Below, in pieces: positions 59,742-64,000 of a stretch of 64,000 nucleotides of DNA; the first letter of the stretch is position 1, and each line of letters opens with the position of its first letter. A program made the position numbers and the translations under genes. The stretch comes from an uncultured Rhodospirillales bacterium (GTDB taxonomy: Bacteria; Pseudomonadota; Alphaproteobacteria; Azospirillales; Azospirillaceae): contig CAIOBP010000254.1 of assembly GCA_903856295.1 (NCBI GenBank), positions 1-64,000 on the forward strand. Reading direction: 5' to 3'. Under the pieces are notes generated by a model. The model searched no databases, was not told where the DNA came from, and saw only the letters and a program-made list of their open reading frames with translations.

Positions 59742-60782
59742 ATGACAACGGGGCGCCCTGTGTCCATCGGTTCGATCTCCTCGAAATTGCCGCTGGTTTT
59801 GTCCTACACCCGGTTGGCCCACGACCAGCACAAGGCCGGCGGCCTGCTGGGCAGCGCCCGTCTGGTGCGCGGCGCCAAGTTTCTCGGCCGCGCGCTGGTC
59901 TGGTGGCGCGACACCACCCGCTGGCTGGAACTGCTGGAAACCCTGCCGCTGGCGGGAATTCCGCCGGTGGTGCGCAAGGAGATGGCGGAAAAGATCCACC
60001 GCCCCTACGCCCGGCTCAATCTCGGCACCGCCGGACGCACGGCGCTGCTGGTCAGCCACTACAGTATTCTGTCCGCGGCGCTGCCCGGCCCGGTGCTCAA
60101 CGCCCTGGTCTCGGGCGCGGAACTGCCGCTGGCGCGGCTTCAGGGCCGGCGCAATCCAGAGGATCGCTACACCATCCACCTGACCCGCCACCGGCGCTTC
60201 CACCAGCAGGGCGAGGCGGTGATCGTGTTCTGGGACGAGTCGCTGAAATGGGCGCTGTCGACCCTGTGCATCAATCTGCGGATCGATGCCGATGGCCGGC
60301 GGGTGCTGTTCATCAGCGGCTTGCAGGGACCGTCGCAACCGATCGGCAAGACCGAGATCGTCCACACCACCCGCACCCTGGACGGCCTCAGGCCCAAGCG
60401 CGCGGTGCTGGAGGCGACCTATGCCCTGGCGCGCTGGCTGAAGATCGACGCCATCGTGGCCATCAGCAAGGCCAACCACATGTCCACCGGCCTGGGCCGG
60501 CGCTGGCGCGACATTCGCGCCGAATACGACGAGTTCTGGGCCGAATTCGAGGCGGTGCTCCAGGATGACGGCGATTTCCGGATGCCCGACGCCCTGCCCC
60601 AGCGCGATGTCAGCGACGTGCCGGCCAAGCGCCGCAAGGACTGGCTGAACCGCAACGCCCGCCTGGAAGCGATCACCAGCGACGTCACCGCCGCCCTCGA
60701 GGCCCTGGCGGCGGGCGGAGCGCTGCCGGAAGCGCCGAGCGCCGCCCAACCCGCCGAGGATGGCGAACCGACCGAGGATTAG
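59742..60782 (+). CDS. VirK/YbjX (DUF535) family protein
   Basis: HRPYARLNLGTAGRTALLVSHYSIL...LFISGLQGPSQPIGKTEIVHTTRTLDGLRPKRAVLEATYALARWLKIDAIVAISKANHM. Confidence 0.85.
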   Translation: MTTGRPVSIGSISSKLPLVLSYTRLAHDQHKAGGLLGSARLVRGAKFLGRALVWWRDTTRWLELLETLPLAGIPPVVRKEMAEKIHRPYARLNLGTAGRTALLVSHYSILSAALPGPVLNALVSGAELPLARLQGRRNPEDRYTIHLTRHRRFHQQGEAVIVFWDESLKWALSTLCINLRIDADGRRVLFISGLQGPSQPIGKTEIVHTTRTLDGLRPKRAVLEATYALARWLKIDAIVAISKANHMSTGLGRRWRDIRAEYDEFWAEFEAVLQDDGDFRMPDALPQRDVSDVPAKRRKDWLNRNARLEAITSDVTAALEALAAGGALPEAPSAAQPAEDGEPTED

Positions 60783-60889
60783 AGCACGATCGCGAAGAGG
60801 TGGAATCGCCTCGAAGCGTGAATCGCGCTCTAACTATAGAGCACGATCGCGAAGAGGTGGAATCGCCCCGAAGCGTGAATCACACTCTA
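60780..60889. repeat. Two tandem copies of a ~52-bp palindromic intergenic repeat
   Basis: agagcacgatcgcgaagaggtggaatcgcctcgaagcgtgaatcgcgctctaa at 60781 and agagcacgatcgcgaagaggtggaatcgccccgaagcgtgaatcacactctaa at 60838. Confidence 0.95.
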
Positions 60890-62460
60890 AAGTTCTCGGA
60901 CCGCCACAGCGCCAGCGCCTTGTCCTCGGCGCCCGCGCCCTCGGCGATCAGCAGGTCGGGACGGCACAGGTTGAAGGGCGGCGCCAGCAGATTGACCGGC
61001 CGCCAACCGCCCAACTCGCCCTCTTCGTTGGTCGCGGCGCTGGCGGTCGAGATCGCGATGTAGCGGCATCCGGCGCCCTTGAGGGCGCGCAGAGCCTGCC
61101 GGATCTCGTCATTCGGATAATGGCTCAGGACATCCCGGCACAGCAGCAGATCGCAGGCCGGCAGAGCATCCGAGAGAATATCGGCAACCTGGAACAGGTG
61201 GTTCTTGCGGTGTGCGAAGGTCTTGAGGTTGCTGGCGATCAATCCCGGCACGATGTCGAAGCCGATATAGAGCCCGAGCGCGCCGGAAATCTGCGACAGC
61301 CAGTTGACATCGCCGCAGCCGGCATCGCACAGCGACCGAATATTCAAGATATCAAATATCCCCGGCAACTGTCCGCGCAGATGCCGGGTTTCCGCGAGCG
61401 TCGAACCGGAACCGCTCGAGGTCTCCAGGCTGCCCCAGCCAGTGCCGCTGTAAATGTCCTTGAATATCCGGGTCTGCGCCGATTCCGTCTGCGGCCAGGG
61501 AAACTTCCCCAGCCGGGCGCGGGGCGCGATGGTCCGCGTCCGGAAGGTAACGCCGCAGAAATCCTCGTAGTCCTCCAGGCTGCGCCGGGTGCCGAAGCCA
61601 TATGAGTCGAGGTCCTTGATCGCCTCTTCGTCCGCGCTCGGCTCGGTGCCGAACAGGTGCTTGACCCTGGCCTTCGACCGGGCATCCATCAGGTCCCAGC
61701 CGACCGGGTGCGGATCGGACCAGTGGCGCGTGCGGTTGGTTCCAGTATAATCGTGATAGATCAGCACCTTGCCCGGATGGAACAGGTCCCAGCCCCAGGT
61801 CCAGAGCCGTGCCGAGAGGCTGATTTCCTCACCCCAAAAATAGATGTTCGGATCGTATGGCACATCCCCGATGATCTCGGCGCGCGCGAAGATATACCCG
61901 CCGGCGACGAACGCCGCCGGAATCGGCGTGTCGATCCGGTCAACGCCATCCAGCGTCCGCGATCCGAAGATCAGAATCCCGGCGTCGTCGAATTCCTTTG
62001 CTGTGATGACGATCGAATGCGTGGTGTCGTCGAGATCATGCGGAGGGGTATAGGCCGAGGGATAGGTCGACAAAACCGGACGATCCGACGGGCAAGCCTG
62101 AAGGATCGAGATCAACTCGCGATCCCAGCCCGGCGCGAAGCGCATATGGCTATCGATCTGAAGGGTGTAAGTCTCGCCCCGGTACAGCTGCTGTGCCTGA
62201 TGCCGTGCCCAGCACACACCAAGACTGTCGGCGGCATCGATGAAGACTTCCCTGATCTGCCGCTCGCGGGTGCGGATCACCAGACAATCATCATCCTCAC
62301 CCCGGACGAGCTGCCAGACCACGCCGACAAAAATGGCATCCGGATTGGCGGCCTGCTCGAACAGATCCCGGATCGTCCACTGGCACTCGATATCGCGATA
62401 GGCCGCGATGCTGACAAATATCGTTGGCGTCCCAGCCGGTTCACCCAACGCGTCCTCCAT
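60880..62460 (-). CDS. GlcNAc-transferase-domain (PF11397-like) protein fused to a SAM-dependent methyltransferase domain
   Basis: N-term TIFVSIAAYRDIECQWTIRDLFEQAANPDAIFVGVVWQ and CWARHQAQQLYRGETYTLQIDSHMRFAPGWD; C-term SLCDAGCGDVNWLSQISGALGLYIGFDIVPGLI...CDLLLCRDVLSHYP. Confidence 0.82.
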   Translation of the reverse strand: MEDALGEPAGTPTIFVSIAAYRDIECQWTIRDLFEQAANPDAIFVGVVWQLVRGEDDDCLVIRTRERQIREVFIDAADSLGVCWARHQAQQLYRGETYTLQIDSHMRFAPGWDRELISILQACPSDRPVLSTYPSAYTPPHDLDDTTHSIVITAKEFDDAGILIFGSRTLDGVDRIDTPIPAAFVAGGYIFARAEIIGDVPYDPNIYFWGEEISLSARLWTWGWDLFHPGKVLIYHDYTGTNRTRHWSDPHPVGWDLMDARSKARVKHLFGTEPSADEEAIKDLDSYGFGTRRSLEDYEDFCGVTFRTRTIAPRARLGKFPWPQTESAQTRIFKDIYSGTGWGSLETSSGSGSTLAETRHLRGQLPGIFDILNIRSLCDAGCGDVNWLSQISGALGLYIGFDIVPGLIASNLKTFAHRKNHLFQVADILSDALPACDLLLCRDVLSHYPNDEIRQALRALKGAGCRYIAISTASAATNEEGELGGWRPVNLLAPPFNLCRPDLLIAEGAGAEDKALALWRSENFRV

Positions 62461-63853
62461 CCTTGTCCGCTTGCGCGCGGCGCTGCTCCCGACGGTCGAG
62501 CGTGTTGCCGGGCTGGCCGGTGATCCGGCCGCGACAGGCCGGCGCGCCGCAGGAGCAATCGAACGGTTCCATCCGCTCGTTGCTGAAACAGCGGTAGTCG
62601 AGGGTCAACTCCTCACCGGCGGCGATCGCCCTGAGCGCGATCACGTCCAGGCCGGCGAAGGCGGTGTTCGGGGCGCAGGAATGATTCTGCGGCGCCCAGC
62701 CCTCCGGCGCCTCGTCCCACAGCACGAAGAGTTCGTCGGCCAGCGGATAGGCGTAGCGGCGAAAGACCTCCTGCTGCTCGGCGCTCCAGTTCCGCTCGAC
62801 ATGGCGGCGGGTGACGAGGCGCTGCGGCCGCTCCTCGCCACGAAACACGACTTCGCCGGCGGCAATCCCGCGGCTGGCGCGCAGGCCGTAGCCGCTGGCC
62901 GCCGAGCGGGCCACCACATAGGGCTTGGCCGCCCGGCGGTGCCGCGCCAAGCCCTCGGCGATGATATGGCGCAGGAAGCCATCCGGCCCCAGGCCCTCGT
63001 GAGCCAGACAATAATCGGCGGCGCTGTAGGACCCGGCCGGATGCAGCACGGAACAGGCGAAATCGGCACCGCTGAACCAGGGCGTCCCGTCGTCCGCGAC
63101 CCGAAAATCCATGCGGCAGTAGCCGACGCCGCCGCAGACCTCGAAGATCGCCTCGGCCGCCGCGCGCAGACGCCCGGCCAGCGGCTCGGCGCGACAGGGC
63201 AGATTGCGCCCCTCCAGCTCGTTGGGCACCAGCGCCCGCCCCTGCCCCGGACGTCCCGGTTCCGCCAAAACCAGCACGGAGAACGCCCGGCCGGGGATGT
63301 GACGCTCGATCACGATGTCGTCGCACTCCGGCGCCAGCCGCCCGACCCCGGCCACCACCTCGGCCAGAGTCCGGCACGGCGACGCCGGATCCACCGCCGG
63401 AGGACCGCCGGCATGGCCCGGCGTGACGACCAGGGGAAAGCCCAACCCCGCCACCGCATCCGCGAGCGCGCCGGGATCCGGGGCGGGGCCGGTCACCACC
63501 GCGAAGTCGGGCGTGGCCACGCCGGCATAGGTGGCGCACAGCTTCATCAGCGCCGGGCCCGGATCGTAGAGCCGCGCCACCGTCCCGGTATGGGGCAGCC
63601 CCAGCCGGGTGAGGGCGTCGATGACGTCGACCGAGGGGAGGTCCCAATCCAGGCAGCCGGCGCAGAGATTGACGAAGATGTCGAACCCCTCCCGGCGCAA
63701 CGTCCTGAGCTGCGCATGCACCGTGACCTTGCGCAGCAAGACATGGACCAACTGGTCGTCGGGCAGCAGGGCGGTCAGGTCGCGCGGCGGCTCATCCCGG
63801 CCCGGAGCGCGCGTCGAAACACTGTCGTCGGGCTGAAGAACGCAAATTTTCAT
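62441..63853 (-). CDS. ATP-grasp-like (D-Ala-D-Ala ligase-like) domain fused to a SET domain
   Basis: N-term MKICVLQPDDS...DIFVNLCAGCLDWDLPSVDVIDALTRLGLPHTG...GYCRMDFRVADDGTPWFSGADF; C-term VARSAASGYGLRASRGIAAGEVVF, NHSCAPNTAFAGLDVIALRAIAAGEELTLDY, post-SET FDCSCGAPACRG. Confidence 0.83.
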   Translation of the reverse strand: MKICVLQPDDSVSTRAPGRDEPPRDLTALLPDDQLVHVLLRKVTVHAQLRTLRREGFDIFVNLCAGCLDWDLPSVDVIDALTRLGLPHTGTVARLYDPGPALMKLCATYAGVATPDFAVVTGPAPDPGALADAVAGLGFPLVVTPGHAGGPPAVDPASPCRTLAEVVAGVGRLAPECDDIVIERHIPGRAFSVLVLAEPGRPGQGRALVPNELEGRNLPCRAEPLAGRLRAAAEAIFEVCGGVGYCRMDFRVADDGTPWFSGADFACSVLHPAGSYSAADYCLAHEGLGPDGFLRHIIAEGLARHRRAAKPYVVARSAASGYGLRASRGIAAGEVVFRGEERPQRLVTRRHVERNWSAEQQEVFRRYAYPLADELFVLWDEAPEGWAPQNHSCAPNTAFAGLDVIALRAIAAGEELTLDYRCFSNERMEPFDCSCGAPACRGRITGQPGNTLDRREQRRAQADKDGGRVG

Positions 63854-63894
63854 GCCCCCTCCCGATCACCGCCAGTTTGGACACGCTGAGCCGG

Positions 63895-64000
63895 CTACCC
63901 CCTCGCCTGCCCGCCATCCCTCCGCGGCGCCGCCCGCTCCTGGTCGGCCATCGCCTCGTCTTCCTCGTTGGCGACCGACAACTCGAACGCGCGGGCCAGA
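63895..64000 (-). CDS. C-terminal fragment of an unidentified protein (cut by window edge)
   Basis: Minus-strand frame reads LARAFELSVANEEDEAMADQERAAPRRDGGQARG*. Confidence 0.5.
   Translation of the reverse strand, partial: LARAFELSVANEEDEAMADQERAAPRRDGGQARG

Follow-up and report, generated by a model that had tools for sequence, protein, structure and literature searches.

Possible remnant of a SET and Ddl-type ATP-grasp gene cassette in an alphaproteobacterial draft genome

Gene content of the locus

The window analyzed here comprises positions 1-64000 of contig C254 (76,539 bases), which belongs to a 4.0 Mb alphaproteobacterial draft genome, a class to which its relatives and its DUF2155 and GapR genes point. 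An earlier note on this stretch proposed that two fusion genes at its right end, P0001 and P0002, and a third co-oriented gene entering from the edge formed an undescribed modification system, and advised reading past position 64000. The contig could be followed to 76,539, and a SET gene and a DUF2155 gene were found upstream. The minus-strand transcription order is DUF2155 gene, stand-alone SET gene, P0001 and P0002, with the following features:

64512-64922 of the contig, minus strand: DUF2155 gene, upstream of the edge SET gene
63895 to ~64434, minus strand: edge gene, a stand-alone SET methyltransferase of about 180 aa (PF00856, 33.7 bits); 63895..64000, its C-terminal end, lies in the window
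62441..63853, minus strand: P0001, ATP-grasp-SET fusion, 470 aa, from its open reading frame and domains
62954..63853, minus strand: Ddl-type ATP-grasp half of P0001, probably catalytically dead, from motif losses
62513..62932, minus strand: SET domain of P0001 with post-SET cysteines, intact (PF00856)
62441..62460, minus strand: 20-bp overlap of the P0001 stop region and the P0002 start
60880..62460, minus strand: P0002, glycosyltransferase-methyltransferase fusion, 526 aa, from its open reading frame and domains
61486-62436, minus strand: GT60-like glycosyltransferase of P0002 (PF11397)
60901-61467, minus strand: class I methyltransferase of P0002 (domain match)

The same-strand overlap of 20 bp reported for the two fusion genes is exactly that of positions 62441-62460, and the reading frames of both are open. 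The edge gene also proved real, and it encodes a SET protein whose SET domain lay outside the view of the earlier note. In P0001, the ATP-grasp match is of the D-Ala-D-Ala ligase type and weak (PF07478, 23.6 bits, just below the 24-bit cut-off), and the SET match reaches 40 bits (PF00856). The homology and the gene order kept across other genomes are far above chance.

Just downstream of P0002, a 26-bp core occurs in two exact copies 57 bp apart (60782-60807 and 60839-60864). A similar stretch (83%) was located at C78:6998-7043, and the core is possibly a dispersed intergenic repeat.

Decay of the ligase half of P0001

P0001 was compared column by column with eight other fusions, counting invariant columns. 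Of the 101 otherwise invariant columns in the ATP-grasp half, 26 were altered only in P0001 and three only in its closest relative, that of locus L031 (binomial p = 1.5e-5), six of the counted columns lying within a 19-aa deletion that represents one event. The corresponding figures for the 36 columns of the SET half were one and one. The losses include the phosphate-binding Lys and the Gly/Ser loop (K144T, D150G, S151P and G153A, all invariant in the eight other fusions), a 19-aa segment absent after residue 212 (near 63217) that aligns with the omega-loop region of Ddl, and the metal ligands, where an acidic residue became Gly and N264D occurred in WFSGAD, with SGAD in place of IDAN/LELN. 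Against TIGR01205, P0001 scored 17.9 bits versus 45 for the L031 fusion and 78 for that of locus L026. With these ATP-grasp catalytic residues gone, the ligase activity attributed to P0001 by the earlier note is not supported: its ligase half is probably dead, to judge from its motifs. The SET half retains NHSCxPN, the catalytic Tyr and the post-SET Cys cluster under normal constraint, and the best reading is that P0001 persists as a SET methyltransferase.

The dN/dS ratio was 0.31 over the ATP-grasp half, near the 0.25 of the SET half. As both values are below 1, the ATP-grasp half may be kept as a structural platform. Its recruitment to serve the SET domain without catalysis, as a platform for binding or regulation, would also fit the preserved frame and the Ddl fold still predicted by the structural model (Foldseek 9.3e-16), yet residues invariant elsewhere have been lost at an accelerated pace and model confidence is low in the glycine-rich loop (residues 149-156), which speaks against it. 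We consider this recruitment a tentative proposal, somewhat short of an even chance, which is compatible with the explanation favoured below.

Synonymous divergence between P0001 (62441-63853) and L031:6001-7455 was about 0.6. For the neighbouring SET gene, the ABC gene of contig C52 and P0002, each against its counterpart in G429, the genome of L031, the values were 1.15-1.47, about twice that of P0001, hinting at different gene histories.

A conserved cassette in other genomes

A scan with P0001 brought up ten relatives of full length, from Bacteroidota, Gemmatimonadota and Alphaproteobacteria. In the order that includes L026, 39 of the 299 genomes sampled carried the fusion (about 13%), whereas among 395 sampled alphaproteobacteria it was found only in the window genome; its distribution is thus patchy. 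Twenty loci were fetched from fusion carriers in the L026 order, and adjacency was counted after setting aside loci cut off at the fusion, which left 29. In 28 of them, from several phyla, the neighbour of the fusion is a Ddl-type ATP-grasp gene; 23 also have a stand-alone SET gene and with it the full trio, usually ordered SET, ATP-grasp, fusion. The closest relative, L031 (71-72%), shows the order SET, ABC, ATP-grasp, ATP-grasp, fusion, with genes that overlap or nearly abut. The idea that ATP-grasp with SET marks an undescribed system was supported by the SET/ATP-grasp/fusion cassette; the clustering of fusion neighbourhoods proposed in the earlier note gave Ddl-type ATP-grasp and SET genes as partners, never P0002.

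The partner ligase has the predicted fold of Ddl (AlphaFold pLDDT 85; Foldseek 2.5e-20 to DdlB), and the partners and intact fusions possess Ddl-type ATP-grasp motifs together with this fold. A lone ABC membrane domain (PF13748) was matched in 12 loci. Full MsbA-like ABC transporters were restricted to two alphaproteobacterial cassettes, Bacteroidota having at most the PF13748 membrane domain. No conserved target gene was found beside the cassette across the loci examined.

Two further observations concern the neighbouring genes. PF13748-only genes devoid of an ATPase domain lie after or near the fusion, for example at L103:6618-7553, L098:4006-4977 and L024:7578-8468, and in two Bacteroidota loci (L096:7532-8812 and L097:7602-8882) a kynureninase-type gene takes the usual place of the stand-alone SET gene.

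An anti-phage defence system was rejected because the core proteins had no PADLOC match: SET, ATP-grasp, fusion and P0002 all failed to match its defence models, and only the ABC transporter gave matches, which were of the ATPase type. No paper describing ATP-grasp with SET in such an arrangement was found in the literature covered, which did not extend to bioRxiv preprints and most subscription journals. The combination of SET, Ddl-type ATP-grasp and ATP-grasp-SET fusion is apparently an undescribed conserved one, made of enzyme families that are each known.

The stand-alone SET protein

In the edge SET gene, the NHSCxPN motif, the catalytic Tyr and the post-SET cysteines are all intact. The best solved relative of its product is BurB (2.5e-16), followed by a histone methyltransferase (1.4e-6). 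Similarity to BurB suggests a small-molecule methyltransferase of the BurB type, although it leaves the choice between small molecule and protein lysine undecided, as histone-type SET enzymes match too. The polar tail of the edge protein comprises its last ~25 residues, and the role of substrate or partner once offered for it was rejected since the tail is unconserved, being absent from the closest orthologue, in L031.

Paralogues in the window genome

A second ATP-grasp-SET fusion is encoded on contig C103 (L034:9409-11067, 552 aa), and its state is the converse of that of P0001. Its ligase half is intact and its SET half is destroyed, NHSC having changed to NHAG and the catalytic Tyr to Phe, with the post-SET cysteines gone. 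This protein carries a C-terminal GapR-like DNA-binding domain; elsewhere in the genome, a canonical GapR is encoded on C208 and a second divergent copy on C195. Contig C52 encodes a fusion-type ligase that stands alone, next to an ABC exporter with 68% identity to the ABC protein of the L031 cassette. Directly upstream of this exporter there are overlapping genes of JmjC/cupin_8 type and of the LicD family (L035:4387-5897).

Only fusion-type paralogues were recovered among the ATP-grasp matches of the window genome, the partner-type Ddl ligase not being found. Since the C103 and C52 paralogues occur without a partner-type copy, the cassette appears to be dispersed in this genome, with the two functions of the fusion enzyme now divided among separate, complementary copies. 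A caveat is that the assembly is a draft with modest contamination (0.6%), but the paralogues lie on separate contigs of similar G+C (0.64-0.65). A deletion scar between the SET gene and P0001 was also considered: BLASTN of this short interval against L031 gave only chance-level short matches, with no convincing ABC or ATP-grasp remnant, and the scar is unsupported.

A proposed pathway

Enzymes of the Ddl type activate a carboxylate as an acyl phosphate and then couple it to an amine, and SET enzymes transfer a methyl group from SAM to an amine or, in the case of BurB, to a thioether. Combined with the exporter-type genes, this chemistry makes a peptide or amide that is small, methylated and exported the favoured product. 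We estimate a probability of roughly 0.5 that the cassette makes a small methylated peptide, exported in some lineages, and that the window locus is its remnant. The locus would then derive from a horizontally spread biosynthetic cassette whose intact form comprises, in tight order, a stand-alone SET gene, a Ddl-like ATP-grasp ligase, sometimes two, and the ATP-grasp-SET fusion; an ABC exporter often accompanies them, or else a lone membrane domain of the ABC type. The ligases would turn a carboxylate into its acyl phosphate and join it to an amine, so that a short peptide is made without the ribosome, or else an amide. With SAM as donor, the SET domains would methylate an amine or thioether, either in a building block or in the product, and the transporter would export the product. 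In the window genome the fusion would have been partitioned, P0001 keeping only SET chemistry, the C103 protein retaining the ligase with a dead SET domain and a GapR domain, and C52 providing a stand-alone ligase beside the exporter. The broader proposition of an undescribed, widely transferred pathway in which SET domains methylate a non-ribosomal peptide, and whose fusion was split here into half-dead paralogues, one of them with GapR, is put forward as a possibility that falls a little below even odds.

The same genes could instead modify proteins, with the ATP-grasp ligases adding amino acids to a protein in the manner of RimK/TTL and the SET domains methylating the added or nearby lysines. 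The cassette SETs match lysine methyltransferases of the MLL/SET1 type and keep the canonical NHSCxPN and Tyr, the GapR fusion on C103 suggests that one paralogue acts on the nucleoid, and the eukaryotic TTLL12 combines TTL-like and SET-like domains (PMC3520985). However, the ATP-grasps are of the Ddl type, not RimK/TTL, by both sequence and fold, no histone enzyme is as close to the solo SET as BurB, which acts on a small molecule, and the cassette comes with exporter-type genes but has no conserved target gene beside it. We therefore hold protein modification to be a real but less likely rival, at perhaps half the weight given to the exported methylated peptide.

Were the peptide pathway real, its importance would lie in the SET chemistry. 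SET domains are usually regarded as protein lysine methyltransferases, and BurB, which acts on a free amino acid, is a recent exception. An operon pairing SET with peptide-forming ligases would offer a second testable setting for small-molecule SET chemistry, and the cassette a possible new class of natural products. The window genome would add a case in which one bifunctional enzyme has come apart into paralogues with a single, complementary function each.

P0002 and its relation to P0001

Residues 9-325 of P0002 correspond to a PF11397 GlcNAc transferase (273 bits) and residues 332-520 to a class I methyltransferase. Its DxH motif reads QIDSH. P0002 is a GT60-like glycosyltransferase-methyltransferase and is probably directed to Thr.

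No P0002 homologue was found in any of the 30 other fusion loci. In 40 genomes searched, PF11397 occurred only in the window genome; in the 395-genome sample, the glycosyltransferase and methyltransferase domains occur separately in seven other alphaproteobacteria, and the ATP-grasp-SET fusion was absent from the carriers of the glycosyltransferase domain, a class sample of equal size having shown it only in the window genome. No viral contig with P0002 was found among those searched, and phage and plasmid matches cover single domains only. A single homologue of full length was found, 46% identical; it belongs to G429, where it lies on a different contig from the L031 cassette and about 50 bp behind a Thr-rich protein that has RTX-like motifs and repeats of TVTETAT. 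The GC3 of P0002 is 0.79 versus 0.86 for P0001. P0002 was consequently rejected as a cassette member, on its absence from the fusion loci and the disjoint carriers among the sampled alphaproteobacteria. Because it is missing from those loci, P0001 and P0002 are not co-conserved, the very outcome that the earlier note had named as counting against a functional unit, with G429, which has both, as the exception. The best reading of P0002 is that of an unrelated gene that arrived later, downstream of P0001; within the proposed pathway, it would have landed there as a separate gene.

That the two fusions are one four-activity toolkit decorating the tail of the edge protein, as first proposed, is very improbable: the 20-bp overlap on a common strand and the sharing of G429 by the closest P0001 homologue and the only full-length P0002 homologue are outweighed by the 0/30 count, the separate contig and Thr-rich neighbour in G429, the GC3 difference, the probably dead ligase and the unconserved tail.

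Bacterial PF11397 genes were seen near Thr-rich or Thr-Pro repeat proteins in 4 of 12 loci examined:

L062:1-1429: PF11397 gene near a Thr-rich/Thr-Pro repeat protein
L135:2600-3937, minus strand: PF11397 gene near a Thr-rich/Thr-Pro repeat protein
L114:9304-10212: PF11397 gene near a Thr-rich/Thr-Pro repeat protein
L118:4693-5811: PF11397 gene whose neighbour was chosen by its TP pattern

The Thr criterion was 10 Thr in 30 residues, reached by none of 33 control loci, and L118 is also below it. Such Thr-rich neighbours are possible acceptor substrates.

Comparison with known systems

The intact cassette ligases share with DdlA and DdlB the fold, the ATP-binding Lys loop, an omega-loop KxY-like segment and the E-x-N metal site. 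They differ from them in being fused or adjacent to SET and in a remodelled acceptor-site region, so their substrates are probably not D-Ala, and they score far under the curated Ddl cut-offs. BacD and other dipeptide-forming ATP-grasp ligases may carry out a like chemistry; they match the partner ligase weakly (5e-4), BacD is not its nearest fold and bacilysin genes were not seen around it.

Among solved structures, the stand-alone SET protein is closest to BurB, the SET-domain methionine S-methyltransferase of the DMSP/bur pathway (PDB 9l4t), and the alignment spans most of its length, including HSC, Tyr and the post-SET cysteines. BurB has LHSC whereas the cassette SETs have NHSC, and its context is the DMSP pathway, not an ATP-grasp cassette (PMC12542666). 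It methylates free methionine (PMC12542666), so SET activity on amino acids has a precedent.

Concerning P0002, the DxH motif is stated for GT27 and GT60 (PMC7185993), and in Trypanosoma cruzi the Thr residues of mucin-like proteins receive alpha-GlcNAc from GT60 enzymes (PMC9472816). P0002 has PF11397 and DxH in common with the GT60 polypeptide GlcNAc transferases T. cruzi TcOGNT and Skp1 GnT; unlike these, it is bacterial and is fused to a class I methyltransferase.
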